Positions 15,300 to 42,400 of a DNA stretch of 44,315 bases are shown piece by piece. This DNA comes from Bacteroidales bacterium (GTDB lineage Bacteria > Bacteroidota > Bacteroidia > Bacteroidales > Muribaculaceae), in assembly GCA_014800815.1 (NCBI GenBank), contig JAAVFI010000071.1, forward strand, positions 1 through 44,315, read 5' to 3'. The first letter of the stretch is position 1. Every line of letters begins with the position of its first letter. The notes under the pieces were generated by a model that saw only the letters and a program-made list of their open reading frames with translations, ran no database searches and had not been told where the DNA came from. The translations under genes were made by a program, and so were the position numbers.

Positions 15300-15833
15300 A
15301 TGGATTTTAGCAAATTTACATTCCGACAAATTGAAGCCGACACAGAAATAAAGTCGTTTGATTGCGGAGATACCGACTTAAACGACTTTCTTGTAAGTGA
15401 CGCTAAGAATTATCTCAGCGCCATGATGGCTTTGACATATCTACTTGAGGATAATTCGGAATGTAAAACTGTTGCTTATTACAGTCTATTAAATGATAAA
15501 ATTGTTTTTGACCCGAGTGAAAAACAATTTTGGAATAGGCTTAACCGTAAAATTGTCAATTCCAAACGCCGTAAGGAATACCCGGCAGTAAAGATAGGTA
15601 GACTCGCGGTTTCAAAAGACTATGCAGGCCAACATATCGGTGAGGCTATTTTGTTGCAAATAAAACATATGTTTGCAACAATGCGTCGAAGTGCCTGCCG
15701 GTTTATCACTGTTGATGCCTATGCGGCAGCAGTCCCTTTCTACGAAAAATGTGGCTTTATGTTTCTATCGGAGAAAGATAAAAAAGCCAGAACACGCGCT
15801 ATGTATTTCGATTTAATAAACTTTGTAAACTAA
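15300..15833 (+). CDS. GNAT acetyltransferase, probable TacT/AtaT-type toxin
   Basis: A 177-residue GNAT-fold protein. The N-terminal FDCGDTDLNDFL is a hallmark of the TacT/AtaT group of toxins, which acetylate the amino group of charged tRNAs and stop translation. The acetyl-CoA loop lies in IGRLAVSKDYAGQHIGEAILL, and VPFYEKCGF carries the conserved Tyr near the active site. It follows the small putative antitoxin by 2 bp. The pair lies in the low-GC islet, as expected for a mobile toxin-antitoxin module. A harmless acetyltransferase is possible, but the gene order favours the toxin reading. Confidence 0.8.
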   Translation: MDFSKFTFRQIEADTEIKSFDCGDTDLNDFLVSDAKNYLSAMMALTYLLEDNSECKTVAYYSLLNDKIVFDPSEKQFWNRLNRKIVNSKRRKEYPAVKIGRLAVSKDYAGQHIGEAILLQIKHMFATMRRSACRFITVDAYAAAVPFYEKCGFMFLSEKDKKARTRAMYFDLINFVN

Positions 15834-15901
15834 CATACCTACTTCATATTTTAATATAGTCTAATATACAAGACTTACTGAACAGGTATTTTCAGCATAA
15901 C

Positions 15902-15940
15902 GGGGTCGTGTCACAGGCATGGCCTTTTTTTTTATTTTTT
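15902..15940 (+). terminator. Terminator of the GNAT operon
   Basis: GGTCGTG (15904-15910) pairs with CATGGCC (15918-15924) through two wobble pairs, followed by nine Ts and more T-rich sequence. Confidence 0.7.
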
Positions 15941-15986
15941 TTCGTTTCTATTACGTATATTCAGAATCCGGCGCCGTCAATAAGGC

Positions 15987-18651: not shown

Positions 18652-18725
18652 AAAAAGTTTAAGGCTTGTTACGTAATCCGTAATTGCCGATGCGTCAATT
18701 AGTAAGTACATACTATGAAAAAACT

Positions 18726-23285: not shown

Positions 23286-23304
23286 TACTCTCAGGAATAG
23301 CACA

Positions 23305-25071: not shown

Positions 25072-28000
25072 ATCTGTCTCTGATGAAACTACCTACAGTA
25101 GCTATAAAAACTTTACTTACAGGCCTGTTGCTGCTCACGGCAGCAACATCGGCCTTTGCAGCAAAGCGTCCTCTGAAAGTGCTTGCAATCGGCAACAGCT
25201 TTACAGTCGACGCCGTGCAGGACGACCTCGTACCTCTTGCCGCGGCCGACAGCATAGACCTTGTCGTAGGATATCCCTACCGCCCCGGCACTCTACTGAA
25301 AGAACATCTTAACTTTCTGAGCGGCGACAGCGCGGTATACACTTACCGCAAGGCTACTCCCGCAGGTGCCGAGCCCTACCGCAAGCACAGCACCATGAAG
25401 CAGGCCATTGCCGATGAAAATTGGGATTGGGTGATAATACAGACCAATCACACCGGCGGCTACGACTTCGATGAGGAATACCTGCCCTATTTCGATCGTC
25501 TTCGCGACAGCATCAGCAGATATCTCACCAACCCTGAAAAGGTGAAGTGGGGTCTGTATATGACCTGGGCCTACGACAAAGATTCGAAGTATCGCTTCTT
25601 CAAGCACTACGACTACGATCAGGCGCGAATGTTCGACAACATCGTGGAAACGACTCCGCGCCTCCTCGCATCTACCAATGTCGACCTCCTCATCCCTGCA
25701 GGAACAGCTATCCAGAATCTGCGCACATCTGCCGCCTTCGGCGACCGTATGAACCGCGACGGCTATCACATGAACCTCGACCACGGTCGCTATACCGTGG
25801 CTTGCGCATGGCTCGAAGCTCTTACGGGTCGTCCTGTAGTCGGAAACAGCTATCATCCCAAGGAGCTGACAGCCTACAAAGCACGGCTCTGTCAGGATGC
25901 CGCACACAAGGCTATCGAGAAGCCCTTCGAGGTGAGTGATATGGACATAGCCAAGCTGCCCGTGCCCGAGAATATGACCAATCCTCTGGTGCTCGGCAAC
26001 AAGCGCATCACGCTTATCACCCCTACCCTTTTCCGTCTTGAATACGCCCGCGAAGGACGGTTTCTCGACGATCCCACGATGTTTGCCATAAACCGCGACT
26101 CGATGCTCCGCGAGGGTTACACGATCGAAGCTCTCGACGGCGGTCGTCGCTACAAAATCGACACCGGCAAACTTCAGCTCGTATTCGACAACGACAATCT
26201 TCCTTTCGGCCAGATCAATACCGAAGTATACTTCACCCGTATGGAGGAGGAAAAGAAGATTTCGGCACGTAATCTCCACTCCAAGAAGCGCAACCTCAAT
26301 CTCGGAGGCAGCATCGCCACCCTCGACGCCGTTCACGGCGAGGTACCTCTCGACGACGGTCTTCTGAGTGAAGACGGCTGGTACTACCTGGTCGACACCG
26401 ACAGCGAAGTGCTCCGCAACGGTTGGTTCGAGCGTCGCGACCCATCGCACGTACAGGACCAGTACTGCTTCGTGTACGGCGACGACTTCCACGCACCCTT
26501 CCGCGACCTCGGCGTTATCTCCGGCAAGGTGCCCATGACCCGCAAGAATGTACACGGCATCTGGTACTCACGCTGGTATCCCTACACTACGGGATATGTG
26601 GACACTCTCGTGGCCGAATACCGCAGCGAGGGCTTCCCCCTCGACAACGTGGTGATGGATATGGACTGGCACACCGTAGACCCTGTTGAATACGGTATCG
26701 GCCACAACTTCACCAAGGGCTGGACCGGCTATACTTGGAACCGCAACCTCATCCCCGACCCGAAGGACCTTATCGACCGCCTGCATGCCGACAGCCTCTA
26801 CGTGAGTGTCAACGAGCACCCGCACGACGGTATCCGTCCGTACGAAGACTGCTACGAGGCATTCATGCGCGACATGGGCTACGACCCCGCCGGCGGCGAG
26901 ACTCTCATTTTCGACGCTTCCGACCCCGTGTATATGGACCGCTTCCTGCATCACTCACGCAAGGAGAACAAGGACCTCGGCGTAGACTTCTACTGGCTCG
27001 ACTGGCAGCAGGACTATCTCTATCCCTGGGTACCCGGCAGCAAGATGCGTCACGTGAAATGGCTCAACAAGCTTTTCTACGAGGACCTCGAGCGCGACAA
27101 TACCCGCGGCATAAGCTACAGCCGCTGGGGCGGCTGGGGCGACCACCGCTATCCTATCAACTTCTCCGGCGATGCCACCGGCAACTGGGATGTGCTCGGC
27201 TTTGAAGTAAAACTCTCTCAGACAGGCGGCAACGGCGGTTGCTACTTCTGGGTACACGATACGGGCGGGTTCCACGGCATCTACGACCCCGAACTCCACG
27301 TGCGCTGGAGCCAGTTCGGAGCTCTCACCGCAGCTCTGCGCGTACACGCTTCGCGCGGCAAAGGTCTCGACCGCCGTCCGTGGCTCTGGGGCGAACAGGC
27401 TACCGAAGGCATGCACTCGGCCTACACATTCCGCTCGCAGGCTATGCCCTATATCTACAGCAGCATCCGCCGCACTCACGAAAGCATGCTGCCGCTCAAC
27501 CGCTGCATGTTCGTCGACTATCCTACCGACAGCGCCGCCTACAACCGCTACGGCCAGTATCTGTTCGGCGACATCCTCCTCGCCGCCCCGATTGTAAAGC
27601 CCGGCAAGGGCGAGCGCAAGGAAGCTTCGGTAGAGGTATGGTTCCCCGCAGACGCTCCCTGGTATGACTACTTCACCGATGAGATGCACGCTGCAGGCGC
27701 CACAGATATGGTGACTAAAGACATCAGCACATTTCCCCTCTTTGTGAAAGGCGGACAGGTGCTGCCCCTCCAACCTTTCAGTCATCGTCCGGCATCGGCT
27801 CCCCTCGACAATCTGATAATGCGCATCTATCCCGGCGTAGACGGCGAAAGCAATACATTCACTCTCTACGAAGACGATGGTATCTCGCTCGACTATCAGA
27901 ACGGCGGCTATGCCAAAACTGACCTTACATATACTCAGAACAACGGCAAAGCTACCGTAACCGTAGCTCCCACTGCCGGAGAATACAACGGTCAGACCAC

Positions 28001-28202
28001 ATCGCGCTCCTACACTCTCGAACTCGGCGGCTATGCCGCGGTGAAAGATGTGCGCGTCGACGGTCGCAAAGCTAAAGCGACACTTCGCGACGGACGCTAC
28101 TATGTGGAAGTTCCCTCACGCTCGGTACGCAAGGGTCTCAAAGTCACTTTCGACTTCACACCCGGAGCCGCCGACAACATCCTTGCAATCAATAACAAAT
28201 AA
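25068..28202 (+). CDS. Exported SGNH-esterase (DUF4886-like) / GH31 fusion enzyme
   Basis: A 1044-residue exported enzyme with two catalytic halves. A signal peptide (about 1-32) precedes an SGNH-hydrolase/DUF4886 domain (about 36-285) with the nucleophile Ser44 in LAIGNSFTVDAV and the D231-xx-H234 pair in DGYHMNLDHGRY. The second half (about 305-1035) is a GH31 alpha-glycosidase: DMDWH (531-535), GWTGYTWN, the nucleophile Asp645 in WLDWQQD, the acid/base Asp702 in SGDATGNW, then C-terminal beta domains (about 880-1035). GH31 includes alpha-glucosidases, alpha-xylosidases and alpha-N-acetylgalactosaminidases, and the sequence alone does not fix the activity. The esterase half probably removes an acyl group from the same glycan. 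It overlaps the susD stop by 4 bp. Confidence 0.9.
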   Translation: MNLSLMKLPTVAIKTLLTGLLLLTAATSAFAAKRPLKVLAIGNSFTVDAVQDDLVPLAAADSIDLVVGYPYRPGTLLKEHLNFLSGDSAVYTYRKATPAGAEPYRKHSTMKQAIADENWDWVIIQTNHTGGYDFDEEYLPYFDRLRDSISRYLTNPEKVKWGLYMTWAYDKDSKYRFFKHYDYDQARMFDNIVETTPRLLASTNVDLLIPAGTAIQNLRTSAAFGDRMNRDGYHMNLDHGRYTVACAWLEALTGRPVVGNSYHPKELTAYKARLCQDAAHKAIEKPFEVSDMDIAKLPVPENMTNPLVLGNKRITLITPTLFRLEYAREGRFLDDPTMFAINRDSMLREGYTIEALDGGRRYKIDTGKLQLVFDNDNLPFGQINTEVYFTRMEEEKKISARNLHSKKRNLNLGGSIATLDAVHGEVPLDDGLLSEDGWYYLVDTDSEVLRNGWFERRDPSHVQDQYCFVYGDDFHAPFRDLGVISGKVPMTRKNVHGIWYSRWYPYTTGYVDTLVAEYRSEGFPLDNVVMDMDWHTVDPVEYGIGHNFTKGWTGYTWNRNLIPDPKDLIDRLHADSLYVSVNEHPHDGIRPYEDCYEAFMRDMGYDPAGGETLIFDASDPVYMDRFLHHSRKENKDLGVDFYWLDWQQDYLYPWVPGSKMRHVKWLNKLFYEDLERDNTRGISYSRWGGWGDHRYPINFSGDATGNWDVLGFEVKLSQTGGNGGCYFWVHDTGGFHGIYDPELHVRWSQFGALTAALRVHASRGKGLDRRPWLWGEQATEGMHSAYTFRSQAMPYIYSSIRRTHESMLPLNRCMFVDYPTDSAAYNRYGQYLFGDILLAAPIVKPGKGERKEASVEVWFPADAPWYDYFTDEMHAAGATDMVTKDISTFPLFVKGGQVLPLQPFSHRPASAPLDNLIMRIYPGVDGESNTFTLYEDDGISLDYQNGGYAKTDLTYTQNNGKATVTVAPTAGEYNGQTTSRSYTLELGGYAAVKDVRVDGRKAKATLRDGRYYVEVPSRSVRKGLKVTFDFTPGAADNILAINNK

Positions 28203-28249
28203 AACGAATCAAACAATTTAATAAACCTGAATCACTAATCACGGAAATC

Positions 28250-30043
28250 ATGAAAAAAATTTCTATCTCCCTGGCCTGTATGGCCCTCCCGGTTCTCATG
28301 TCGGCTGCCGAGTACTATGTAGTCCCCGGCCTCAAAGCCTCCGGTAAGGACGGCTCATCATGGGAAAACGCTCTGACTATGTACGACATCTTCGCCAACG
28401 ATGCCGCAACCAAGAAGAAAGAATCTGAAAGTATCTACAAGCACGGCGACGTATTCTACCTCGCGGGCGGTACATACATCAACTCGCTTCTCGGCGGCAA
28501 GACCGGCGGCGACGACGTGCGCATCTGCCACGGATATACATTTGTAGGCGGTTGCGACCCCACCAAAGGTCCCGTGACCGAATGGCCTACCTATCCTTCT
28601 GCCACCCCCACTATCTTCTCGGGCGACCTCAATGAAAACGGCATTGCCGACGAAGGCGACATGTGCAACCTCGTATGTGTCCGTTCAGGCAGTACCGACG
28701 GTATGGATATCAGCCACCCCGAAAATCCCGAACCCGCTACTACATTTATCGGTGTAGACTTCACCAACTCTTACTCTCCTGCCGGTACAAAAGACGAAGC
28801 AGGTGCCGTACACTGTACTCAGGGCCGCATAGCTCTCAAGTACTGCAATATCTACGGTAACGTGAGCGACGGCGACGGCTCGGGCGACGGTGTTGCCGCC
28901 GGTATCGGCATCCGCGGCGGCCGCTACGAAATCAGCGACTGCAATATCTACGGCAACAAAGGCCGTCAGACAGGTGCCGGTCTGCGCGTGACAAGCCGCA
29001 GCGCCAGCATCAGCCGCGGTGTAGTAGAACGCTGCTACTTCGGTGAAAACGAAATCAGCGGACGCTACGGTGCTGCAATCGCCTACACTTCGGGCGACAG
29101 CCAGTGGCTCGTCAACTCCACTATCGTGGGCAACAAGGCTAAATACGAAGGCGCAGGTATCGCTATCAACGGCAGCAACTTCAGCGGTACCAACGGCTCG
29201 GGCAATACCGACGAACGCTCTGTGCACATCGTCAACTGTACTATCGCCGGCAACATCTGTACCGCCGATCCCGCCGACCTCTACAAAGAGGATACCAACC
29301 CCGGCTCATGGTTCGGTTCGCAGATCCGTATCAGCGCCGACCCCGCAGTTGAAATCTGCAACTCTATCATCGTAGGCGCTGAAGACGACGGCACCATTGC
29401 CAAGGCTGCAATCATGCTCCTCGACGAAGTATCAAGCGACAATGCCTACCTCAATTCTTACGGTGGCAGCATCCTCGGTACATTCGCAACCACAGCAGAG
29501 CCCAAAATCTCTATCAACTGGCTTGCCGACAACATGGACGAGGACGCTCCCTACACCTATGCAACAGTATTCGGCGACGCAGTACCTGCATTCAACGGCG
29601 GTTTCACCAAGACTCTCATCCCCCGCAGTGAATTCCTCGACGAAATCGGTTCTTATCCTCTCTACGGCTTCGAAATCAACGACTTCGTTACCGGTCTCGT
29701 TAGCGCCGGACACAATCTTCCCTTTGAAATTTCCGTAGACGTAGACCAGAACGGTACCAAGCGCGACTTCTCTGACGAGGGTGAAACAGCACCCGGTGCT
29801 TACGACTACCTCGCATACGAAAACGCAGGCGTAGAATCTGCCGTAGCTGCTAAAAACGGTCTCGTTGCAGCAGGTGCATACACCTGGAAGACTGCCGATG
29901 GCTCTGTTGCCGACTTCACAGTATACAGCGTAACAGGTGCTGTAGTAAAGACTGCCAAGGCTTCAAGCGTAAATATCGCCGACCTCGCAGCTGGTGTATA
30001 TGTCGTTACCGACGGCACAAGCACCGTTAAAGCAATCCGTTAA
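28250..30043 (+). CDS. Secreted beta-helix protein with T9SS-like sorting domain
   Basis: A 597-residue exported protein. Residues 1-19 (MKKISISLACMALPVLMSA) form a signal peptide. The middle (about 130-380) has repeated right-handed beta-helix rungs: TTFIGVDFTNS, IALKYCNIYGNVS, YEISDCNIYGNKG, VVERCYFGENEI, WLVNSTIVGNKA, VHIVNCTIAGNI and EICNSIIVG. Its opening resembles pectate-lyase-like or choice-of-anchor-Q proteins. The C-terminal 75 residues (DFTVYSVTGAVVKTAKASSV to GVYVVTDGTSTVKAIR) look like a type IX secretion sorting domain. A polysaccharide-binding or lyase role is inferred; no catalytic residues could be identified. A strong terminator follows. Confidence 0.85.
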   Translation: MKKISISLACMALPVLMSAAEYYVVPGLKASGKDGSSWENALTMYDIFANDAATKKKESESIYKHGDVFYLAGGTYINSLLGGKTGGDDVRICHGYTFVGGCDPTKGPVTEWPTYPSATPTIFSGDLNENGIADEGDMCNLVCVRSGSTDGMDISHPENPEPATTFIGVDFTNSYSPAGTKDEAGAVHCTQGRIALKYCNIYGNVSDGDGSGDGVAAGIGIRGGRYEISDCNIYGNKGRQTGAGLRVTSRSASISRGVVERCYFGENEISGRYGAAIAYTSGDSQWLVNSTIVGNKAKYEGAGIAINGSNFSGTNGSGNTDERSVHIVNCTIAGNICTADPADLYKEDTNPGSWFGSQIRISADPAVEICNSIIVGAEDDGTIAKAAIMLLDEVSSDNAYLNSYGGSILGTFATTAEPKISINWLADNMDEDAPYTYATVFGDAVPAFNGGFTKTLIPRSEFLDEIGSYPLYGFEINDFVTGLVSAGHNLPFEISVDVDQNGTKRDFSDEGETAPGAYDYLAYENAGVESAVAAKNGLVAAGAYTWKTADGSVADFTVYSVTGAVVKTAKASSVNIADLAAGVYVVTDGTSTVKAIR

Positions 30044-30057
30044 ACTATAACTTGCCC

Positions 30058-30092
30058 AAGGGGGTACGCAGCCTCTTGCGTACCCCTTTTAT
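30058..30092 (+). terminator. Terminator after the beta-helix gene
   Basis: GGGGTACGCA (30061-30070) pairs perfectly with TGCGTACCCC (30077-30086), followed by TTTTATT. It sits between the beta-helix gene and the first EEP-beta-helix gene and may reduce expression of the latter. Confidence 0.9.
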
Positions 30093-30110
30093 TCTCCTCA
30101 CTATCAAGCA

Positions 30111-32627
30111 ATGAAGAAAAGAATAGCACTAAGCATAGCAATACCGGCAGCGGCATTTATCGCAGCACAAGCAGCCTCTTTAAATGTCGGAGCATACAAT
30201 ATCCGTTTCCTCACTTCAGGCGACACGGGCGACCGCGCGTGGAACAACCGCAAGGAATACGTAGGCCGGACTATAAAAGACGCTGCCTACGATATTGTCG
30301 CTATCAACGAAATGTCGTGCGGCACTCAGATGGAAGATATGAAGGCCATGCTTCCCGAATATTCCATGTCGGGCTGGGGCACCGATTCCGAGACCGACCC
30401 TACGACCGGTACGTTTACATCCGTGCTCTATCTTACCGATAAATTCGAACTCCTCGACGAAGGCCATTACTGGTTGGCTCTCAACACCGAGAAACCCGGT
30501 ATTTCGTGGGACAATACCAACAATCGACGAATGACAGCCTGGGCCAAACTCCGTGTAAAGGAAAGCGGTGAGATTCTATATTACTTCGCCACACACCTCG
30601 ACAATAAGGGCGACGATGCCCGAAACGAAGGTGCCCGCATCAACATGGAGAAGATCCGTGAAATTGCGGGACACTACCCCGCGATAATCGCCGGCGACCA
30701 CAATTCTTCGGCTATCCGATATCCGTTCTACGACCTTTTCTCGGCATATATGCTCGATGCCCGCAAGGTGGCCAAAACTCCATTCCCCTGGAGCAAAGAC
30801 GGCTCAATGTGCAACTGGGACCCCGAACTTAAAGACAATACCCGTATAGACTACATATGGGTAAAAGGCGCTGAAGTGAACTCCTACGTCCATATCAACG
30901 AAACCTACGGCCGCCCCGTGACTCCCTCCGACCACTTCGCTATCAAAGCCAACATCACTCTCAACGAATACGTGCCCGACCACACCCGATATGTCGATGC
31001 TTCGGCATCATACGGCGGCGACGGCTCGAAAACAAATCCGTACAATACGCTGCAGGCGGCTATCGACAATACCGTGTGCGGCGACACCATATATGTTGCG
31101 GCCGGCGACTACGCCGTGACAGCGACAGGCTCGCTCTCGGGAGCCAAAGCAACAATCAACATCACCCACAGCCTTACCATACTCGGCGGCTACGACCATG
31201 AGTTTGAAAATGTGACAGGGACATCCCGCGTCGACGGCAAAGGTCAGGTCTACCGGGTAATGACTGTGCAGAAGCCCTACGCCCTCGAGCTTCGCGACTT
31301 CGAGATTACAGGCGGACGCGCTGCCGACAACACTACCACAACCACGGGTGCGGGAATCGCTTGTCTCGGTGCACGTCTCGACCTCGAAAGGGTAGCCGTG
31401 TACGGCAACTACGCCAAGAGTAACGGCGGCGGTGTATATGCCGCCGGACAGCTCAACTGCCGCAAGTGCCGCTTCGAAGACAATACTTCCGACGGCTACG
31501 GCGGCGGTGTGTACACCAACTATTCAGGCGACAAACTCTGGTGGCGCTTCGTGATAAGCGACTGCAGCTTCAGCGGCAACTCCGCCATGCAGGGTGCGGG
31601 TGCTTACATCGGAGGTTGCTCGCGCGCCCTCTTCGCCAACAACACGTTCAGCGGCAATACCGCGCGCCAGAACGGCACCGTGACCATATCCGGCGCCACC
31701 TTCGATTGCAAAACCGCTTTTGTAAACAACACCTTCGTCAACAACCGTGTGGAAGCGACATCCGGCGCTATCAACCAGATAAAAGGCGGAGCGGCGATTT
31801 ACGCCAACAATTCATCGGGTTCTCGCATTGTGCTGTTGAACAACACCATTGTCGGCAACACTTCGGTATGCGGCACCTCAGCTCCCGCCGATTTCCGTGG
31901 CGGAGCCGTGAATATATTCGGAGGCACGGCGGCCTTTTTCGCCAATATCATAGCAGCCAACAGCACCAATGCCCCCGACGGCATATGCGACATCGTTACC
32001 GACGGAGGCAAGGCTTCGGGCAAGTCCAATATCTACTCGTTCCGCGAAAGTATCGACTTCAAGAAAGACATCTCCGACGTCGTTGCCAAGGACCATAATC
32101 AGGCTCTCGAAGCTATCGCAACACTCTACGGAGGCTCCGTAGCGGACGGAAATCTGCAGCTCGAGACTGCTGACGAAGGCTATACATTCCCCGTCCTTGC
32201 ACCCGTCACCGGCTTCTACTGCGGCAATCCTATCAACAGCATGCTCTATTCACTCTACCGCGAGAACTATATCGACGCTGATATCGACGGCGACGCCGAC
32301 CATAACGGCACCTTACTCGCCGACCAGCGCGGCGTGGTGAAACGCACCAACGGCACAGGCTCTCTCGGCTCATACGAATACGACCCCAACGCATCTGCAA
32401 GCCTCACAGAAGCAGTAGGGAGCGTGGTGCGCGTACTCGGAAATACTCTCGAGATAAATTCCGACAAGGAAATAGGAAATATCTCTGTCTACACTCCCTC
32501 GGGAGCGCTGACAGCATCATACACAAATCTTACAACAACTAACTTCCGCGCCGACATAAGCTCGCTCTCACCGGGCCTGTACATAGTGGTGTGGAATGGC
32601 GGTTCATCCAAAATTATCAAACACTGA
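30111..32627 (+). CDS. Secreted EEP (nuclease/phosphatase)-beta-helix fusion protein 1
   Basis: An 838-residue exported protein with three parts. After the signal peptide (about 1-21) comes an endonuclease/exonuclease/phosphatase (DNase I-like) domain, about 24-285: N30 in AYNIRF, E67 in AINEM, the His of ATHLDNKG, D and N of AGDHNSSA, and D and H of SDHFAI, so the metal-dependent active site is intact. A right-handed beta-helix follows (about 300-640; VDASASYGGDGSKTNPYNTL, then LERVAVYGNYAKSNGGGVY and further rungs). The last about 75 residues are a T9SS-like sorting domain. EEP enzymes cleave phosphodiesters or phosphomonoesters; target options are nucleic acid, phosphoglycan or phospholipid. 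Confidence 0.88.
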   Translation: MKKRIALSIAIPAAAFIAAQAASLNVGAYNIRFLTSGDTGDRAWNNRKEYVGRTIKDAAYDIVAINEMSCGTQMEDMKAMLPEYSMSGWGTDSETDPTTGTFTSVLYLTDKFELLDEGHYWLALNTEKPGISWDNTNNRRMTAWAKLRVKESGEILYYFATHLDNKGDDARNEGARINMEKIREIAGHYPAIIAGDHNSSAIRYPFYDLFSAYMLDARKVAKTPFPWSKDGSMCNWDPELKDNTRIDYIWVKGAEVNSYVHINETYGRPVTPSDHFAIKANITLNEYVPDHTRYVDASASYGGDGSKTNPYNTLQAAIDNTVCGDTIYVAAGDYAVTATGSLSGAKATINITHSLTILGGYDHEFENVTGTSRVDGKGQVYRVMTVQKPYALELRDFEITGGRAADNTTTTTGAGIACLGARLDLERVAVYGNYAKSNGGGVYAAGQLNCRKCRFEDNTSDGYGGGVYTNYSGDKLWWRFVISDCSFSGNSAMQGAGAYIGGCSRALFANNTFSGNTARQNGTVTISGATFDCKTAFVNNTFVNNRVEATSGAINQIKGGAAIYANNSSGSRIVLLNNTIVGNTSVCGTSAPADFRGGAVNIFGGTAAFFANIIAANSTNAPDGICDIVTDGGKASGKSNIYSFRESIDFKKDISDVVAKDHNQALEAIATLYGGSVADGNLQLETADEGYTFPVLAPVTGFYCGNPINSMLYSLYRENYIDADIDGDADHNGTLLADQRGVVKRTNGTGSLGSYEYDPNASASLTEAVGSVVRVLGNTLEINSDKEIGNISVYTPSGALTASYTNLTTTNFRADISSLSPGLYIVVWNGGSSKIIKH

Positions 32628-32630
32628 TCT

Positions 32631-34808
32631 ATGAAACTGAAGGCACTCTACCTCGGTCTTGCCGCAATGTATGCAGCCGCTCCGCTCGCCGCTGCTGAAA
32701 ACGGCTACGACTACACCATGGGCACCTACAACGTGCGTATAGCAACTGACACCGAACCCGGAAAGGTATGGTCAGACCGTAAAGAAAACGTTGTACGGAC
32801 CATTACCGACACAGGCTTCGACGTTGTCGGCCTCACGGAAGTGCTCGACGGAGAGCAACGCACCGACCTGCAAGCTCTTCTCCCGGACTACGACTCCGAC
32901 TTCCGTCTCGTATATTCAAGCAGCACCAAGAAGCAGATGAACGCCGTGCTCTGGCGTCGCGACCGCTTCGAAGCGCTTGAGAACGGTATGTTCTACCTCT
33001 CGCCCGACATCAACTCTTCTTCTATAAAGTTCACTGGAGCAAGCCAGTCGCGCGCCACTGTATGGGCCAAGCTGCGCGACGTAAACACCGACGAGATTTT
33101 TTACTTCTTCTGCTGCCACATGAACCGCCACGAGCACTACATAGCCCAGCTCGAAGGCAGCCGCGTAGTAGCCCGCATGATTCGCGAGATAGCCGGTGAA
33201 TATCCTGCATTCCTTGTCGGCGACCTCAATTCACTGCCCGGCGAACATCAGGTAGCCGGTATGATAAGCACCGTGATGACTTCGGCTCAGGAAATCTCTG
33301 CGACACCTGTCACCGAACCGCTCATCACTATAAATTTCTGGACCGACGACCCCAACAACAAATATCAGTTCGACTACGTATATGTGAAACATGTCGACGT
33401 CGACCGCTGCTTTACCGTAAAAGAAACCTACGGGCAGAGCTTCAATCCGAGCGACCACCTGCCGCTCGCCATTACCTGCCGCCTTACGGCACCCGAATCG
33501 CGCCGCCCCGACAAGGTTTACGTTCCTGCAGGCGCTTCGATAAACGAGGCTGTAGAAACAGCTGCTCCCGGTGCAACAGTCTACCTTGAAGCGGGCGAAT
33601 ACACTCTCCCCGAGGGTGGACTGAAACTCGACAAGTCGGTAACTCTCGAGGGCGGATACGACGGCGCCTTCACAAATATAAGCGGCTACTCTACCCTGCT
33701 TGCCTCCGACGGCAGCAGAGCCATTGAGGTGCTCGGCTCCAACTTCCTCGAAATGCGTCGCTGCAAAGTAAGCGGCGGAACGACCGAGGGCAACGGCGGT
33801 GCCGTGCTCTGTCACGGCTGGATGCTCGATGCCTCCGATTGCTCGTTCGACGGCAACTCTGCAAGCCACGGAGCGGCGATATTCGCCGAAGGCGACATGC
33901 GCCTCACACGCTGCGGGTTCAGCGGCAACACTGCCGCCGACGGCGGAGCGGCTCTTTATTGGGCGGGAGGTACACGTGCTTTCATCACCGACTGCTCTGC
34001 CGCAAGCAACGACGGCGGCAACGGCTCTGTGATTTCGTTTGCATCACCCTCGGGAGCAGCCACGGTCACAGCCGTCAACTGCTCGGTGTTCGACAATAAG
34101 GGCGGTATTCTCTCCACCCTCACCTCCGACAGCAAAGTCAATATCATCAACTGCACAATTACTGCCAACGAAGCCCACGCCGCAGTGAACGCTGCCGGCG
34201 GCGACCTCAATATCCACAACAGTCTCGTGCTCGCCAACAGCGCCCTCGACGTGACGGGAGCCGCTAAAATCACATCGGCCTACAATGTCTACACCTCTGC
34301 CTCCGACATCAATTTCACGGCAGGGAAAAACGACATCACCGGCACCGACCGCGAATCTGCACTCGCCGAAGCAGCAGCCCTATTCGGAGAGAAAGAGGAA
34401 TGCGGCACCACAGCCCTCTTGCCGATAGCTTCGCCCGATTTTGCCGGTAAAACGGTGAATGCCCTCCCCAACCGCGAGCTCAACGAGTATGCTATCGCCA
34501 CAGACCTCGACAACGACTTCCGCACCACAACATTTACCTACCTCACTCACGACCAGCGCGGCAACGTCCGACCCACCGACGGCACTGCCACTCGCGGCGC
34601 CTGTGAGTACTTGGCAAACAATGGCGCAGACATTGTAGCCATCCCCGACAACGGTATTCTCGACGACTGCCGCATAATCGACCTCGCAGGCCGTACCGTA
34701 GCCACTCCCGGCACTATCACGGTGCAGGAGGCAAAATCACTCTCAGGCATAGCTCCGGGCATATACATACTCGTATGGCGCGGAGGAGCCCTGAAAATCA
34801 AATATTAA
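32631..34808 (+). CDS. Secreted EEP (nuclease/phosphatase)-beta-helix fusion protein 2
   Basis: A 725-residue paralogue of the preceding gene with the same layout. Signal peptide (about 1-22), EEP domain (about 26-285) with N34 in TYNVRI, E70 in GLTEV, His in FCCHMNRHE, D and N in VGDLNSLPG, and D and H in SDHLPL. A shorter beta-helix runs from about 295 to 580 (YVPAGASINEAVETAAPGAT, then rungs such as MRRCKVSGGTTEGNGGAVL), then a T9SS-like C-terminus (CRIIDLAGRTVATPG...APGIYILVWRGGALKI). It begins 3 bp after the first paralogue, so the two are a tandem duplication in one operon. Its 3' end overlaps the convergent sigma gene by 11 bp. Confidence 0.88.
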   Translation: MKLKALYLGLAAMYAAAPLAAAENGYDYTMGTYNVRIATDTEPGKVWSDRKENVVRTITDTGFDVVGLTEVLDGEQRTDLQALLPDYDSDFRLVYSSSTKKQMNAVLWRRDRFEALENGMFYLSPDINSSSIKFTGASQSRATVWAKLRDVNTDEIFYFFCCHMNRHEHYIAQLEGSRVVARMIREIAGEYPAFLVGDLNSLPGEHQVAGMISTVMTSAQEISATPVTEPLITINFWTDDPNNKYQFDYVYVKHVDVDRCFTVKETYGQSFNPSDHLPLAITCRLTAPESRRPDKVYVPAGASINEAVETAAPGATVYLEAGEYTLPEGGLKLDKSVTLEGGYDGAFTNISGYSTLLASDGSRAIEVLGSNFLEMRRCKVSGGTTEGNGGAVLCHGWMLDASDCSFDGNSASHGAAIFAEGDMRLTRCGFSGNTAADGGAALYWAGGTRAFITDCSAASNDGGNGSVISFASPSGAATVTAVNCSVFDNKGGILSTLTSDSKVNIINCTITANEAHAAVNAAGGDLNIHNSLVLANSALDVTGAAKITSAYNVYTSASDINFTAGKNDITGTDRESALAEAAALFGEKEECGTTALLPIASPDFAGKTVNALPNRELNEYAIATDLDNDFRTTTFTYLTHDQRGNVRPTDGTATRGACEYLANNGADIVAIPDNGILDDCRIIDLAGRTVATPGTITVQEAKSLSGIAPGIYILVWRGGALKIKY

Positions 34809-35376
34809 AAAACAGAATCAGAAAGAACAGAAAAGGATTGAGGCGGGCGCGCAAGTCGCGCAGAGCAAGTTCGAGATGTTTCTCGACAGTTCTCACCGAA
34901 AGGCCTGTGCGCACCGCAATTTCCTTAGCCGACATCTGCTCGAAGCGGCTCATCCGGAATATTTCACGGCGTCGCGGAGGCAGAGCCTCTACAGCCTCCT
35001 CAAGAGCATTATGCAACTCAGCCTCACGCATAGTATCTTCCATACTCACGTCTGCCATATCGTATACAGAATGTTCGGGAAGGTGATCGACAATACGCGT
35101 ACTCTTGTAGCGGAAATAATTGAGAACCTCATACTTGGTGAGGACAAAAAGATACACATAGAGCGACTCATCCTCCTTGAGGGTAGCACGGCGAAGCCAT
35201 ACTTTCATAAACACATTCTGAACAATCTCCTCCGCCACCCACTTATCCTTGACAAGACCGAGAGCAAGACTGTAAAAAGTAGGATAATGACGCATAAACA
35301 TCTGCTCGTAAGCCTTTACGCTTCCGTGCATGATGCCTCTGATAAGTTCTCGCTCTATATCTGAATTCAGCTTCAT
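34798..35376 (-). CDS. ECF RNA polymerase sigma factor
   Basis: A 192-residue sigma-70-family extracytoplasmic-function factor. Region 2 (about 25-90) shows YPTFYSLALGLVKDKWVAEEIVQNVFMKVW, and region 4 (about 125-180) has the helix-turn-helix MSAKEIAVRTGLSVRTVEKHLELAL. This is the Bacteroidales RNA polymerase sigma-70 group that normally sits beside a FecR anti-sigma gene. Here it lies on the opposite strand, about 16 kb from the only FecR gene (18726-19703), and just upstream of a divergent EEP gene. I chose the ATG at 35376 (MKLNSDIERELIRG). The C-terminal end (FFLILFFNI) is unusually hydrophobic. Confidence 0.9.
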   Translation of the reverse strand: MKLNSDIERELIRGIMHGSVKAYEQMFMRHYPTFYSLALGLVKDKWVAEEIVQNVFMKVWLRRATLKEDESLYVYLFVLTKYEVLNYFRYKSTRIVDHLPEHSVYDMADVSMEDTMREAELHNALEEAVEALPPRRREIFRMSRFEQMSAKEIAVRTGLSVRTVEKHLELALRDLRARLNPFLFFLILFFNI

Positions 35377-35431
35377 AACATGTCTTTCATGGATATTTGC
35401 GCAGTGCAATAATATTGACGCAACAGCACTT

Positions 35432-35463
35432 CAAAAATACGTAATCAATCATACACACTCCAA
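35432..35463 (-). promoter_or_regulatory. Candidate promoter of the ECF sigma gene
   Basis: Reading leftward, TTG (35463-35461), a 21-bp spacer and TATTTTTG (35439-35432) match the housekeeping promoter pattern, about 55 bp upstream of the sigma start. It lies within the short region shared with the divergent EEP gene. Confidence 0.4.
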
Positions 35464-35464
35464 G

Positions 35465-36391
35465 ATGAAAATTAAATTTTTATTGGCATTAGGCTGTATC
35501 GTACTCGGTATGAACAGCTCCAAAGCATCATCGGTTGTGACAGATTCCACCGCATCGGGCCACAACGCCGCCGTGCGCGTTATGTCGTTCAACATCCGCT
35601 TCATAAATCCCAACGACTCGCTCGACACTTCCTGGGATTCGCGTCGCGAAAGCTGCGCACGCGTCATCAGATTCTTCGCGCCCGACGTGGTAGGCATGCA
35701 GGAACCCCGCGAAGTACAGAAAGACTACTTCTCGGAGATGCTCCCCGAGTACTCGCGCCACAGCATCAACGTGAGCGACAGCATCACTGAAAAGCAGACA
35801 GGCCACGGTGTAATCTACTATCGCAACGATAAATACACCCTCCTCGACAGCGGCTACTTCTGGCTGAGCGAGACCCCCGACGTACCCTCCGCGCCATGGA
35901 ATTCCACCGACCGTCACTACCGTGTGGCCGTATGGGTGCACCTTCTCGACAACGAAACCAACACGGATTTCTACACCGCCACCACTCACTTCCCCTATAA
36001 GAAAGACCCTGTCGACACCGAGGTGCGCGCAAAATGCGCAGCCCTCATCGTAGAAAAGATGAAGGAAAAGGCTGGTGAAGACGCTACCGTATTCGTCACC
36101 GGCGACATGAACGCTTCTCCCAAGATTGAAGACCCCGAAGCTCCCGGCACCCGCAGCCTCGCACCCTTCTACGAGTGGATGCTCGCAGCGCGCAACACTG
36201 CTATCCTCACCGACGACAACAACAGCTTCAACGGTTTCGGCCGTGTAATACCGGGCATGAAAGGCAAAATTCTCGACCACATCTTCTACCGCAACGCCCG
36301 TCCCATCGTGTTCGAAACTCTCGACCGCCCGGACTTCGGCCTGCGCTGGAATTCCGACCACTTCCCCATAATGGCTACATTTACTTATTGA
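35465..36391 (+). CDS. Exported EEP-family phosphodiesterase/phosphatase (single domain)
   Basis: A 308-residue exported enzyme: signal peptide (about 1-22), then a complete EEP domain. Active-site residues are N43 in SFNIRF, E80 in MQEPRE, His in TTHFPYKKDP, D and N in TGDMNASP, D in ILDHIFYR, and D and H in SDHFPIMA. It lacks the beta-helix and the sorting domain found in the two tandem EEP fusions. It is divergent from the sigma gene, with an 88-bp gap. Bacteroidales polysaccharide loci often contain such enzymes, whose substrates are mostly unknown; it may act in the periplasm on what the surface fusions release. A terminator follows. Confidence 0.9.
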   Translation: MKIKFLLALGCIVLGMNSSKASSVVTDSTASGHNAAVRVMSFNIRFINPNDSLDTSWDSRRESCARVIRFFAPDVVGMQEPREVQKDYFSEMLPEYSRHSINVSDSITEKQTGHGVIYYRNDKYTLLDSGYFWLSETPDVPSAPWNSTDRHYRVAVWVHLLDNETNTDFYTATTHFPYKKDPVDTEVRAKCAALIVEKMKEKAGEDATVFVTGDMNASPKIEDPEAPGTRSLAPFYEWMLAARNTAILTDDNNSFNGFGRVIPGMKGKILDHIFYRNARPIVFETLDRPDFGLRWNSDHFPIMATFTY

Positions 36392-36413
36392 TTATAGAGA
36401 AATAAACATGTCG

Positions 36414-36446
36414 AAAAGAGGAGGTTGTGAAACTTCCTCTTTTTTT
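36414..36446 (+). terminator. Terminator after the single-domain EEP gene
   Basis: A 13-bp stem (36414-36426 with 36431-36443, one wobble) with a 4-nt loop is followed by a T run. Confidence 0.85.
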
Positions 36447-36625: not shown

Positions 36626-39429
36626 ATGACATTTCCAGAAAGGAGCATAATATCATTTCCAAACGCCCGTGAATGCCTGCTTGGCATCGCCCTGTTTACA
36701 GTGTCAACAACTTTTGCCATACCGGCCCGACGCGGCACTATCACAGTACCGCAACCCGACGGAAGCACGGTAGAAGCGGTACTGCACGGCGACGAATTCC
36801 AACACTATTTTACTACTCCCGGCGGCGAGCCGATGATAACGGATGCCGACGGTTTTCTGCGCGTTGCCGATATGGACGCCGAAACATTCAAGGCCGATAT
36901 GGCAGACAAAGCCTTGCGCTCGCCACGTCGTCAACGCGCAGCAGCGGCAATCTCGCGAGCCCTGCCTCAGAACCGCGTTACGGTCTGGTGCCCGATGCGT
37001 CCTTCCCCGTCACGGGCAACCCCCGCGCACTCATTCTACTGGTCGAGTATCAGGATGTGCGATTCACCGTCGACGACCCCGCCGACTACTTCTCCCGCAT
37101 GGTCAACGAACCCGGATTCAGCGACTACGGAGGCACCGGCTCGGCGCTCGATTTCTTCAAGGAAAACTCCTGCGGCCTGTTCGAACCGCAGTTCGATGTT
37201 CTCGGACCCGTCACCCTACCCCAGCCTCAGGCCTACTATGGTGCCAACGACGGCCGCGGCGACGACCTCAGAGCTCATATGATGGTGGTCGACGGCTGCC
37301 GAGCCCTCGACTCCAAGGTCGATTTCTCGGTATATGACAACGACGGAGACGGATATGTCGACAATGTATTTGTATTCTATGCCGGAGAGGCCGAATCGTC
37401 GACCGGCGTTGCCGACCAGGTATGGCCGCACACATTCTTCCTGCGCTATGCATCGTCGGTACCCGTGATACTCGACGGCGTACAGCTCGACCGATATGCC
37501 TGCTCCAATGAGTGGAACGGCGCCAGAGGCTCAAGGCCGGCACGACCCGACGGAGTGGGAACTTTTGTGCATGAGTTCTCACACGTAATGGGTCTGCCCG
37601 ACCTTTATTCTATTACCTACAATTCGGCTTTCACGCCGGGCCCCTGGTCGACACTCGACTACGGCCCCTACAACAACGACGGCTGCACTCCGCCAAACTA
37701 CTCTATCTTCGAGCGCTACGCCCTGGGCTGGATGCAACCTCGCGAAATAACCGAGGCCGCCAACGTACGCCTCGAAACTATCGTGCAGAACTCCGGCGCG
37801 ATGATTCCGACGATAAAGGATACCGAATTTTTCCTTTTTGAGAACCGCCAGCAGGAGGGTTGGGACACATATCTGCCGGGCCACGGCATGCTCGTATGGC
37901 ATATCGACTACGACCCCGGGGTATGGACAACCAACACCGTGAATACCACCGTAGGACATCAGTACGTCGACCTTGAGGAAGCCGACGGTATGGGCTCGGA
38001 GGAGACTCGTGCCGACGATGCTTTCCCCGGAGGCCTCGAGCGTACTTCATTTACAGACACTACAATACCGTCTATGCTGCCGTGGACAGGCCGCTCCATA
38101 GGTCTGCCGGTGACGGATATCACTGAGAGCGCCGACGGAATAATCACCTTCAAAGTTGCCGGCGGACGTCCCGACGTAGAGATACCACAACCATCGGCTG
38201 CCACAGAGGTATATCCGGGTGGCTTCACGGCTCACTGGAGCGCCGTCGACGTGCCCGACTGCAGCTATGCCCTATCGGTTTACACCCGCACGAGTGCCGG
38301 CGCACGTGGCATAGTATATGTACCTGAATACAAGCATCTCAATGTAGGCACGGCAACAAGTTACGCCGTGACCGGCCTCAACCCCGACACTCAATATTAC
38401 TACAGCGTGAGCACTGTGGTGGGTAAGGAGAGCAGCGAACCGTCCGATGAAATTGCAGTCCGCACCGACCCGCCGACATTCGACTATCTTACTCCCGTCG
38501 CCCTCGAAGCAAGCGATATCAGTTTCGACAGCTTCACCGCCCGCTGGGAGGCATTGCCCGGAGCGATAGACTACAAGCTGTATGTGACTACCATGAAGCC
38601 CGACGGCGTTCTCTGCGACCTGTGCGACTTCACAGGAGGTCTGACGACTCTACCGAAGGGCTGGAGCACGACGGCAAACTCCACATACTCCATGACTGCC
38701 AATGCGGGAGCTTCGATACCCTCGCTCCGTTTTACCCGTGAAGGTCAGGAACTGAACACTCCGCGCTATACCGACGGCATCAGCGGTTTCGAATTCTGGG
38801 TGCGCGGCGTGAGCACGGATGCCGAGGCCATGATAGTTCTCAAGGGTATTGACAAGGACGGAGAAGCCCGCGACCTTGCCACCTTTGCCGTGAGCACCAC
38901 GAGCGGAGGCAGCACCTGTTCATTTACCGATATACCCGAAGATGTTGTAGCTCTGGCCCTCAGCGCAAAACACAGCAAGGGCTCCATTGCCGTAGACGAT
39001 GTGAAGGTACACCACGGCACAGCCTACTCACCGGCTCCGATAGAGGGTTACGACGGGCTTGGCACCGGCACCGACACCTCGGCACAAGTCAGCGGCCTGG
39101 ATGCGCTCACTGAATATTTCTACCACGTGGTGGCGAACGACGGTACGCTCTCGTCTCTGAAATCCGAAACGATAAAAGTAACCACAGGCGACTCTGCCGG
39201 CATTAGCCCGGAAGTGGGCGACACAGGCATAAGTGCCACCGTCTACGGACGTACCATATCGGTGCGCGGAGCGGCAGAGGGTACTGTAGTGAGCGTAGTC
39301 AACGCACTCGGCGCAGTCGTAGCCCGCGCGAGCGCCAAAGGAGAAGTTACCGATATCGAGCTTCCCACTTCCGGCATTTACTTCGTGAGCTGCGGTGCGA
39401 CATCTATTCTGAAAACCATAGTAAAATAA
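36626..39429 (+). pseudogene. M6-family secreted metalloprotease, frameshifted
   Basis: The gene opens at 36626 with a signal sequence (MTFPERSIISFPNARECLLG...) and a typical propeptide (IPARRGTITVPQPDGSTVEA...GDEFQHYFTTPGGEPMITDADG). The reading frame then shifts by one base, somewhere about 36950-36985, into the frame encoding ASEPRYGLVPDASFPVTGNP and the rest. The catalytic domain is complete in the second frame: HEFSHVMGLPD (37570-37602, HExxHxxGxxD zinc site). Fibronectin-like beta domains follow, with a T9SS-like C-terminus. Restoring the frame needs one extra base. There is no slippery heptamer or long homopolymer at the site, so a mutation or a sequencing error is more likely than programmed frameshifting. 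The adhesin gene starts 6 bp later. Confidence 0.85.
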
Positions 39430-39435: not shown

Positions 39436-42400
39436 ATGAACAAAATCATTTCTTTCTGCGTGGCTCTCGCCGCCGCAGCAGGGTTTGGCACAGCTGTGGC
39501 GGCGCCTGCTCCGCCCGCTGCCGTGAAGCCCGTACAGGCTGCAGAGCACAACCGTCTGTTCCAACGGCCCTCGTCTCCGGTGCACCCGACTGCTTACAAG
39601 TCTATAATGAAGTCACCGCAGGCCAAGTACATCAACGTATCCAAGGCCGAGGCCGGCACTAAGATTCCCGCAATCATCGGCGGTCTTCTCGACTCCTACT
39701 CCGGCCTTACATATGGTCTCTATCAGCTCCCCGACCACGAAGGCGGAGAGTTTACCTTCATCCGCAACGGAATCTACCCCAACGGCGGCGGTGTAGCTGC
39801 CGACGGTTACTACCACTCCTGTGAGGTGGAAGAAGGAACTGAAGGCGTAGACATCATTATCCGTACCTACGAAATGGATACATGGCGCAATACGCGCTCT
39901 TTCTCTCCATCAGACTACTCGTTTATCGCCACCGACGTGGCTCACGACCCCATTACCGGCCAGATATACGGCTGTCTGTGGGATACCTCCGGCTCGGGAT
40001 ATATGTTCGGTACTATCGACTACGTCAATGGTACCACTCACAAAATCAAGGCTCTCGACAACCTCTGGAATGCCGTTGCTATCGACCGCGACGGTACAAT
40101 CTACGCTATCGAGCAGGTAATGGAAGACCACGGCGCTTATGTGGAATGTGTGAAATCGAGCCTCTACAAAGTAGACCGTACCTCGGGCAGCATGACCCTT
40201 GTAGGCGACACCGGCCTGCTCCCCTACTACGCATCGTCGGCAGTCATCGACCAGCACACGGGTCGCATGTTCTGGAGCGTGACGCCCAAGGACGACAGCC
40301 AGTCGGCTCTCTATGAAGTGGATAAGGCTACAGGACATTGCACCCTGGTATACCGCTATCCCGGCGCCGAGCAGTTTATGGGTATGTACGTGCCCGCACC
40401 TCTCGCCGAGGACGACGCTCCCGCAGCAGCCACAAACCTCAGCACAACGTTCGCCGAAGGAAAACTTACCGGTACGGTCAACTTCACCGTGCCGACACTT
40501 ACCTACAGCGGCGCTCAGGGTTCGGGCGATATCTCGTATGAGATCTACACCGGAAGTGTACGTCTTGCAAGCGGAGCCACTCAGTGGGGCAAAGCCGAAA
40601 AAGTGGCAGTGACTCTTCCTGCCGGCGGCCAGACCGAAATCACGGTGACTCTCCTCAACGCCGCAGGTGCTTCTCCCAAAGAGAAAGTGAGCGTATTTGC
40701 AGGCAGCGATGCTCCTACAGCACCCGCTCCCACTGCCGCTTGGGCCGACGGAACCATGACCCTGACCTGGGATGTACCCGCAGGCTCTGTAAACGGCGGC
40801 TACGTCGACCCCGCAGCTCTTACCTATAAGGTGACACGCTACCCCGGTCCGACAGTAGTTGCCGAGGCTACCACAGCAACTTCTTTCACCGAGGCCGTGG
40901 AAATGCCCGACAAGGTGGTGACTTACTTCTATGCCGTAGAAGCTACATACAACGGCAAGACTTCGGCACCCGGCTACTCCAACCGCGTGGTACTCGGTGC
41001 TTCTACAACTCCGTATATCCTCGATTTCGCCGAACTCGATGACCTCGACGGCCTCACTGTAATCAATGAGAATCCCGACTCGCAGGAGTGGGAACTCAGC
41101 GGCGGCGCAGCCCTCCTCTCCGAAGACCGCGTAATGCCAAAGGACGACTGGCTGATAACAGCTCCCGTACGCCTCGTGCCCGGAGCCGTATATGCCGTGA
41201 CAGTGAAAGCCAGCAGTCAGGGCACCTGGTACCCCGAGCAGCTTGAGGTTAAATACGGCGAAGCCAATACCCCCGAGGCTATGACAGAAACTGTCATTCC
41301 CGTAACAGATATCGCCACCTCCACATCTTCGGCTTATAAGACTCTCTCAGGCTACATCTCTGTACAGAAAGAGACTACCGTATTTGTTGGCGTACACGCC
41401 TGCAGCCCCGCCGACGTATGGAATCTCCGTGTAAGCTACATCGCTATCGAAGCAGCATTCGCCTCTACAGCACCCGGCGCAGCCACCAACTTCAAGGCTA
41501 CCCCCGACGCAACAGGCGCCAATGCCGTGACCGTGACAATGAACGCTCCCACTATCGACTACGACGGTAATAAACTTTCTCAAATCACCCGTCTGGCAAT
41601 TTTCCGCGACGGTACAGAGATTCACAGCGTTGAAGCTCCCGCACCCGGCGAGGAAATCTCTTATACCGACAAAGCTGTGACCACCGGTGAGCACACCTAC
41701 TCTGCTATCGCTTACAGCGGCACAAATCCCGGACGCGAGATTTCGCAGACCGTATTCGTTGGTGTGGCAATCCCCGCCGCTCCCGAATTTGTAAGCGCTG
41801 TAGAGACAGAAACCGAAGGCGAAGTCACCCTCACCTGGACTGAAGTAACCACCGACGCCAACGGCTATCCCATAAGCTCCGACCTTGTAAGCTACACCGT
41901 ATACCAGCCCAACGAACTGGCTACCGCGTGGGTACCCGTGGCTTCGGGCATCAAGGGCAATACCTACACTTTCATGGCATCGCCCGACACTCAGGTATTC
42001 GACATGTACGCCGTGGCAGCGGTAACTTCTGCCGGCACATCGAATGCATGTCCGTCCGACGCTATCCCCGTAGGTCCCTCCTTCAAGGTTCCCTTCTTCG
42101 AAAGCTTCGCCAACGGCCTTATGCAGACACTCTTCACTGCCGAGGGCGCAGGCGCGGATTGGGAAGTGGCAATCAACGATCCTCAGTATCTGGCACAAGC
42201 CGACGACAACGGTTTCGTGCAGATGATCGGCGAGTACTATGGCTCTAACGGCGTACTTCTCTCGGGTAAGATCAATCTCGAAGGTTCGGTGAACCCGACA
42301 CTCTCGTTCGCGACATTCAACTACTTCACCACCGAAACAGGCCCCGACTACAACTCGATAGACGTGTACGCTTGCCCGACAGGTGGCGAATGGACTCTTC

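Follow-up and report, generated by a model that had tools for sequence, protein, structure and literature searches.

What would a bacterium do with three neighbouring enzymes of the EEP (DNase I-like) superfamily, two of which carry a beta-helix behind the enzyme domain? This question is raised by contig JAAVFI010000071.1 of a Bacteroidales bacterium (family Muribaculaceae; assembly GCA_014800815.1), which was analysed over 44,315 nucleotides (nt; positions 1 to 44,315 of the forward strand, hereafter the window). An initial annotation, made from the sequence alone, had placed here two tandem secreted proteins combining an EEP domain with a beta-helix and a sorting domain, as well as a third, single-domain EEP enzyme. 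We consider it probable (about 0.6) that the three enzymes provide the phosphoesterases of a SusC/SusD locus by which a phosphate-bearing glycan is utilised. The EEP-beta-helix architecture itself is genuine, rare and conserved, and occurs in a recurrent type of glycan locus. The three genes are as follows (aa, amino acids; T9SS, type IX secretion system):

30111-32627, plus strand: EEPBH1, 838 aa, with an EEP domain (aa ~25-285), a beta-helix-type region (aa ~290-765) and a T9SS type A-like tail (aa 781-837)
32631-34808, plus strand: EEPBH2, 725 aa, with an EEP domain (aa ~28-285), a beta-helix region above the Pfam cut-off (aa 401-537) and a weak tail; an old paralogue of EEPBH1
35465-36391, plus strand: EEP3, an exported enzyme consisting of a single EEP domain and belonging to a separate clade (PF03372, 43.0 bits; cut-off 24.5)

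All three proteins are members of the EEP superfamily: each exceeds the gathering score of PF03372 (32.8 bits in EEPBH1 and 32.3 bits in EEPBH2, against the same cut-off of 24.5), and the active-site residues are intact throughout, as had been proposed. The complete set N/E/H/D/N/D/D/H corresponds to N30, E67, H162, D196, N198, D247, D274 and H275 in EEPBH1, to N34, E70, H163, D198, N200, D248, D275 and H276 in EEPBH2, and to N43, E80, H175, D214, N216, D271, D298 and H299 in EEP3. These residues were invariant in all 16 aligned EEP-beta-helix proteins, every one of which matched PF03372 (E up to 0.01), as well as in the 12 rows of an alignment of single-domain EEP proteins. EEPBH1 and EEPBH2 are separated by 3 nt and both begin with a signal-peptide-like sequence; EEP3 follows EEPBH2 at a distance of 0.65 kb.

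The beta-helix attributed to both tandem proteins was found above the cut-off in EEPBH2 (Beta_helix, 32.8 bits; cut-off 25.9), while the assignment in EEPBH1 follows from weak matches below the cut-off and from homology. Among the 16 family members Beta_helix was matched by 2 and DUF1565 by 7 (E up to 0.01). Weak matches connect 4, 7 and 3 members, respectively, with choice-of-anchor Q, DUF1565 and POMP-type beta-helix surface proteins, from which the family differs in having the beta-helix fused behind an EEP enzyme; a DQ pair is conserved near the end of the aligned proteins. Of the two proposed sorting domains, that of EEPBH1 marginally exceeded the TIGR04183 cut-off of 23 (23.8 bits) and that of EEPBH2 fell below it (18.7 bits); this model was matched by 6 of the 16 members (E up to 0.01). 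SprA and GldM, the two T9SS components searched for, were found in the genome of the window, although their value as proof of a working T9SS is weakened by the fact that both also exceed the cut-off in the genomes of Bacteroides salyersiae and B. nordii. A cell-surface location of EEPBH1 and EEPBH2 is thus predicted from marginal sorting tails and from the presence of SprA and GldM. The two proteins share 29% identity and occupy separate branches of the tree, which led us to reject a recent tandem duplication as their origin.

Some members of the family, or proteins close to it, are built differently. One EEP-beta-helix protein (L058 7852-10431) has a dockerin-like end replacing the sorting tail (Dockerin_1 in 1 of the 16 members), and two loci (L058 1274-5758 and L059 1257-9254) encode proteins of 1173-1494 aa in which the EEP domain is followed by a much longer C-terminal region, one of them with GLUG and List_Bact repeats.

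The surroundings of the three genes have the characteristics of a polysaccharide utilisation locus, i.e. adjacent SusC and SusD genes, sigma/anti-sigma control and carbohydrate enzymes, which bears out the earlier designation as a glycan locus. SusC, SusD, a DUF4886-GH31 fusion, a beta-helix-type protein, EEPBH1 and EEPBH2 form an operon-like run (19737-34808) in which no gap exceeds 67 nt; genes for FecR, a sulfatase and an SDF symporter precede it. Apart from the EEP genes, the following features were identified:

15987-17237, plus strand: SDF-family symporter, of which four other EEP-beta-helix loci contain copies with 71-81% identity
17143-18651, plus strand: sulfatase (motif SGASR, read by eye), whose open reading frame (ORF) overlaps the SDF gene at its start
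18684-19703, plus strand: FecR anti-sigma factor
19737-23285, plus strand: SusC-like TonB-dependent transporter with an STN domain, 71% identical in B. salyersiae
23305-25071, plus strand: SusD-like lipoprotein, 69% identical in B. salyersiae
25068-28202, plus strand: fusion of DUF4886 (SGNH hydrolase superfamily) with a GH31 part closest to 7wj9
28250-30043, plus strand: exported BH protein without an EEP domain and with a weak T9SS-type tail; assigned to the beta-helix type because its L041 homologue exceeds the Beta_helix cut-off
34798-35409, minus strand: ECF sigma factor, divergent from EEP3
36413-36444, plus strand: terminator-like hairpin (14 pairs) with a T-run, from a consensus scan, directly 3' of EEP3

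The ORF of EEP3 as listed (35330-36391) is over-long at its 5' end, where it shares 80 nt with the divergently oriented ECF sigma factor gene; a signal-peptide-like start was found at 35465, which is the likely start of the gene rather than 35330. The hairpin behind EEP3 is taken as the end of the locus on account of its own long stem, since the consensus scan was statistically weak (7 sites in 19.7 kb versus 19.3 in shuffled sequences). Two genes further downstream, for an M6 peptidase and a 1510-aa protein, were set aside as parts of the locus because of this terminator-like site and because neither was matched in 12 other loci (tblastn). The sulfatase was likewise rejected as a core component, given that, of the 12 other loci compared, only G024 gave a match, at 25.8% identity; its true start probably lies downstream of 17143, because the ORF start overlaps the SDF gene.

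Within the 2.77-Mb genome nine EEP matches were detected, three of them in this locus, and random placement brought three EEP genes within 6.3 kb in 233 of 200,000 trials. Two more lie on contig C13 (G000:C13) in a second locus of the same kind, so that five of the nine EEP matches of the genome belong to such loci.

A search for the architecture across genomes, which the initial annotation had suggested, revealed that it recurs and is rare. The EEP-beta-helix fusion was present in 8 of 297 genomes of the family (E up to 1e-80; the own genome included, and two being contig-end fragments), in 4 of 393 genomes of the order (own genome included), and in 2 of 149 genomes of the genus to which B. 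salyersiae belongs, neither of them new relative to the other searches. Among 395 genomes of the phylum the full-length fusion was detected in the own genome only, a second genome being matched by the EEP part alone. Single-domain EEP relatives are, in contrast, common: 107 of the 297 family genomes contained some match to EEPBH1 (E up to 1e-10), mostly to its EEP part alone. Scanning of genome contigs with the alignment yielded 28 loci, 11 of which (L054-L064) matched both halves and 17 the EEP part only; the same scan with a single protein query gave no match. The carriers include B. salyersiae, B. nordii, Coprobacter secundus and several metagenome-assembled genomes (MAGs). No description of the fusion of EEP with a beta-helix in such loci was found in the literature searched.

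Where enough sequence was available (at least 18 kb around EEPBH), SusC and SusD homologues were found in 12 of 14 loci, as a raw count, and a BH homologue in 11 of 14, the window included (some were seen only with a second query). The two loci without SusC are those of Coprobacter (a 25% SusD-like match only) and of a horse MAG. EEP3-type genes occur in 7 and EEPBH in 8 of the 297 family genomes, and both occur in 5 (P 6e-8, relatedness ignored); in G092 and G119 the EEP3-type genes lie far from EEPBH. In the tree, EEP3 and the single EEP proteins of G000:C13, G115, G012 and B. salyersiae form a clade of their own (support 100/99), whose motif H-[FL]-PYKK-x-PVDTEVR is kept in all five aligned members. 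A gene related to the divergent ECF sigma factor gene precedes the EEP3 homologue in G000:C13 and G115.

The nearest solved relatives form the Bacteroides "mannosyl-6-phosphatase" group. Compared with solved structures, the profile of 16 EEP-beta-helix proteins matched 3mpr (1.7e-52), 4c1r, named "mannosyl-6-phosphatase" (3.3e-52), 3g6s (7e-52) and 3l1w (1.4e-42), followed at a distance by nocturnin (2.8e-8), an unnamed EEP protein, CCR4-type enzymes and 2',5'-phosphodiesterase 12; no deoxyribonuclease-named chain was present among the 21 solved sequences matched (E up to 0.01). The EEP3 profile ranked the same four first (from 3g6s, 2.1e-35, to 3l1w, 2.5e-16), with CCR4-type enzymes (7e-5) and exonuclease III (0.35) further down. 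The 4c1r protein, which we take to be BT3783 of a Bacteroides yeast-mannan locus, and the three structures without a named function share their catalytic residues with the EEP proteins of the window. Their motif H-x-D-[HN]-x-G-x-x-A-R is common with EEPBH1, but is absent from EEPBH2, and EEP3 has the PYKK insertion instead. The group also differs in consisting of single domains without a beta-helix, and mannan glycosidases are missing from the window locus.

It is the neighbours of EEPBH in other bacteria that favour a phosphate-bearing polymer, as had been suggested earlier, because an alkaline phosphatase, a calcineurin-like phosphoesterase and NAGPA (PF09992) phosphodiester glycosidases adjoin it there. 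In Coprobacter secundus the alkaline phosphatase gene stands directly before EEPBH, with the calcineurin-like phosphoesterase gene before that, and a weak GH99-like protein (22.2 bits, cut-off 33) is encoded nearby. Locus 2 of B. nordii has the order FecR, SusC, SusD, BH, EEP, EEPBH, alkaline phosphatase; comparison of its frames with the GH31 and GH97 references gave no match, and the four of its proteins that were scanned include no glycosidase. This locus (L137, G692:C100:35001-54000) lies about 4 kb from a T9SS GldM gene (G692:C100:33716-35200). In G897 and G1040, which belong to one genus, two NAGPA genes flank EEPBH; under random placement, two of them would lie within 3.5 kb of EEPBH with a chance of 5e-5 in G897 and 2e-4 in G1040 (given 4 and 10 NAGPA genes). 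NAGPA removes the sugar from a sugar-1-phosphate diester, and PF09992 is the family of the mannose-6-phosphate "uncovering" enzyme. The action of such an enzyme, of a different family from EEP and logically upstream of it, would produce the phosphomonoester on which a hexose-6-phosphatase acts.

Other neighbours give hints as to the kind of glycan. EEP3 and GH97 occur together in the second locus of the own genome, in G115, G012 (an EEP3-GH97 pair on a separate 3.1-kb contig), B. salyersiae and B. nordii (with a partial EEP3 match), and four GH97 proteins beside EEP3 homologues (L047, L048, L052, L054) pass the NCBIfam cut-off for retaining alpha-galactosidases. The GH31 part of the window fusion matched 7wj9, i.e. 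LlGH31_u1 of Lactococcus lactis, an alpha-1,3-glucosidase (named alpha-xylosidase in the PDB), over ~640 residues (4.5e-102). It retains Asp341, Asp394, Gln343 and His280 of that enzyme (counted along the alignment), while His427 falls at a gap; LlGH31_u1 prefers alpha-1,3-linked glucose, the two Asp residues being catalytic and Gln343 and His280 belonging to the substrate site (PMC9061262). LlGH31_u1 is described as having no signal peptide and being possibly intracellular (PMC9061262), in contrast to the window GH31, which is exported and fused to DUF4886, an SGNH family without known activity (PMC9487903).

The composition of this enzyme set varies among the loci. The GH31 proteins of G092, G119 and G024 are only 30% identical to the window type, and B. 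salyersiae has no GH31 within the 22.5-kb locus stretch, the nearest on that contig being more than 600 kb away, with a GH13 in the locus. Fusions were found in three pairings: DUF4886-GH31 in the window, GH31 with a TIM barrel of the AP_endonuc_2 type in G012, and DUF4886 with this TIM barrel in G000:C13. Because the three domains are fused in different pairings, they appear to serve one substrate. For the TIM domain a weak match to the model of the phosphodiesterase CbiR was obtained (42 bits; cut-off 105).

For the SDF symporter, the Arg of the aspartate transporter 9bgz, which presumably reads the acidic side chain, is replaced by Gly in five of five loci, the neighbouring Asp and Asn being retained; a neutral amino acid is therefore the more likely substrate. 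SstT was the best named model, far under its cut-off (89.8 versus 308 bits). The SusD protein was dropped as a guide to the substrate, since its nearest solved chains were weak (best 1.6e-11) and uninformative.

These data may be combined into the following model. The beta-helix region of exported EEPBH1 and EEPBH2 would hold a long polymer, from which the N-terminal EEP domain, as a divalent-metal phosphohydrolase of the mannosyl-6-phosphatase group, would remove phosphate or open an adjacent phosphodiester. The DUF4886-GH31 protein may strip off esters as well as alpha-(1,3-)linked glucose, SusC/SusD would import the pieces, EEP3, together with inner enzymes, might complete the dephosphorylation, and a small amino acid set free in the process may enter through the SDF symporter. 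The glycan is accordingly read as one bearing phosphate and alpha-galactose or alpha-glucose, perhaps with an esterified amino acid, which is compatible with teichoic acid without proving it.

Several observations weigh against a phosphate-bearing glycan as the substrate. The activity, location and substrate of the EEP enzymes, and the order of the steps, are deduced from sequence. The figure of 12 in 14 loci with SusC and SusD is a raw count without a background rate for genes near SusC/SusD, and such pairs are numerous in these genomes. NAGPA adjoins EEPBH in one genus only, and the other 9 of the 11 genomes searched carry it elsewhere; the window copy of the locus has no GH97 or TIM homologue, its contig has no NAGPA, and no alkaline phosphatase was found among the 24 window proteins scanned. 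An alkaline phosphatase beside a nuclease could also serve the scavenging of phosphate from DNA, and weak similarities to nucleases do exist: NCBIfam models of MnuA, ExeM/NucH and exoIII matched 4, 3 and 1 of the 16 EEPBH proteins, respectively (E up to 0.01), EEP3 matched exodeoxyribonuclease III models at up to 18.6 bits (cut-off of at least 99), and its profile weakly matched tyrosyl-DNA phosphodiesterase 2 (1.7e-4). Finally, the beta-helix matches of EEPBH1 are below the Pfam cut-off (DUF1565 16.6 bits, Chlam_PMP 15.9 bits).

In a more specific form of the phosphate-bearing glycan proposal, which we regard as possible but rather unlikely, the food would be a polymer that resembles teichoic acid and comes from Gram-positive gut bacteria. 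DUF4886 would then remove D-alanine esters, the SDF symporter would import alanine, GH97 and GH31 would remove alpha-galactose and alpha-glucose, and the EEP enzymes would break the phosphate backbone or dephosphorylate its fragments. Alpha-glycosyl, D-alanyl and phosphodiester groups all occur in teichoic acids, and the bond by which wall teichoic acid is attached is a sugar-1-phosphate diester, a potential target of a NAGPA-type enzyme. An alpha-galactosidase, an alpha-glucosidase-type GH31, an SGNH-type protein, phosphoesterases and a neutral-amino-acid-type SDF carrier occur in the same group of loci, the carrier being 71-81% identical in five of them. Judged by gene content, it is teichoic-acid-like polymers, of all those considered, that agree best with the enzymes present. 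However, alpha-galactose and alpha-glucose are common in many glycans, the substrate of the SDF carrier is a prediction (with the SstT model at 89.8 versus 308 bits), DUF4886 has no known activity (PMC9487903), and none of the literature matches listed (12 of 337 in one case) deals with teichoic acid as food for a SusC/SusD locus. It is slightly more doubtful that the locus is dedicated to polymers with a phosphate backbone from the cell walls or capsules of other gut bacteria, teichoic-acid-like, D-alanylated and bearing alpha-galactosyl or glucosyl groups, with the EEP-beta-helix protein as a processive surface phosphoesterase and the SDF carrier recovering the esterified amino acid.

Yeast-type phosphomannan, or another glycan capped by a sugar-1-phosphate diester, appears an unlikely substrate. 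In such a system a glycosidase or NAGPA would uncap the glycan and the EEP enzymes would act as hexose-6-phosphatases, which agrees with the mannosyl-6-phosphatase 4c1r being the nearest named solved relative, with the NAGPA genes flanking EEPBH in G897 and G1040, and with the weak GH99-like protein of Coprobacter. Alpha-mannan loci are marked by GH92, GH76, GH38 and GH125; none of these was present among the 24 window proteins scanned, on which grounds a mannan locus was rejected, and the window-type glycosidases are alpha-gluco and alpha-galacto enzymes.

Extracellular DNA, which the initial annotation had listed among the possible substrates, had to be abandoned as a first choice on the basis of the comparison with solved structures and of the weak scores of nuclease models, and a surface nuclease system for DNA or nucleotides, with phosphatases scavenging phosphate, is kept as a quite improbable rival. 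The EEP superfamily does include nucleases, among them the exported enzymes ExeM/NucH and MnuA, and besides the nuclease similarities given above alkaline phosphatase is a neighbour in two loci. The MnuA model, however, reached 15.5 bits in EEPBH2 against a cut-off of 185, neither it nor ExeM/NucH gave a listed match with EEPBH1 or EEP3 (E up to 0.1), the deoxyribonuclease-named chains are missing from the solved matches of EEPBH, and alpha-glycosidases and SusC/SusD would be superfluous for DNA. Least probable is that the EEP enzymes act on small phosphate esters, such as inositol phosphates or the head groups of phospholipids, with the beta-helix as a mere surface spacer, since, although such enzymes occur in the EEP superfamily and beta-helix regions are common in surface proteins, the fusion adjoins glycan-import-type genes in 12 of the 14 well-covered loci and both halves of the protein are conserved over a wide range.

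If the locus does serve a phosphate-bearing glycan, its significance would be ecological. Ordinary glycosidases are probably obstructed by phosphate groups, and a phosphate-clearing enzyme would thus decide who eats such a polymer, and if this were a wall or capsule polymer of Gram-positive bacteria, the locus would let gut Bacteroidales feed on their neighbours. It would also offer a concrete substrate class for DUF4886, for which no activity is known (PMC9487903). A related copy in B. salyersiae DSM 18765 (SusC 71%, SusD 69% and EEPBH 46% identical) makes the locus testable in a named, cultured strain.

As regards its evolution, EEPBH1 groups in the tree with the proteins of B. salyersiae and B. 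nordii (98/93) and not with the second copy of its own genome, and the SusC, SusD and BH proteins of the window are likewise closest to the Bacteroides copies, which suggests that the locus has been exchanged between families.

A few further observations concern EEP genes elsewhere and the remainder of the window. Three tandem EEP genes in G092 (L116 9030-11775), at least two of them lipoprotein-like by eye, lie near weak SusC/SusD matches and represent another type of EEP-rich locus; in G182, EEP3-like genes (L114 11042-11905 and L115 10132-12115) share a contig with a SusC/SusD pair 45% identical to that of the window. Upstream of the locus, the G+C content dips to 0.405 at 14001-16000 (0.50-0.59 in the other 2-kb steps), in a part encoding a 292-aa ORF without a Pfam match and a GNAT acetyltransferase. 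Downstream, the M6-type metallopeptidase gene (36626-39429) has its signal-peptide part (ORF 36626-37282) and its catalytic part (ORF 36673-39429) in different frames, which reflects either a broken gene or an assembly error. It is followed at 39436-43968 by the gene for the 1510-aa exported protein, which has a CARDB domain and a weak, below-cut-off match to a rhamnogalacturonan-lyase-type beta-sheet domain.

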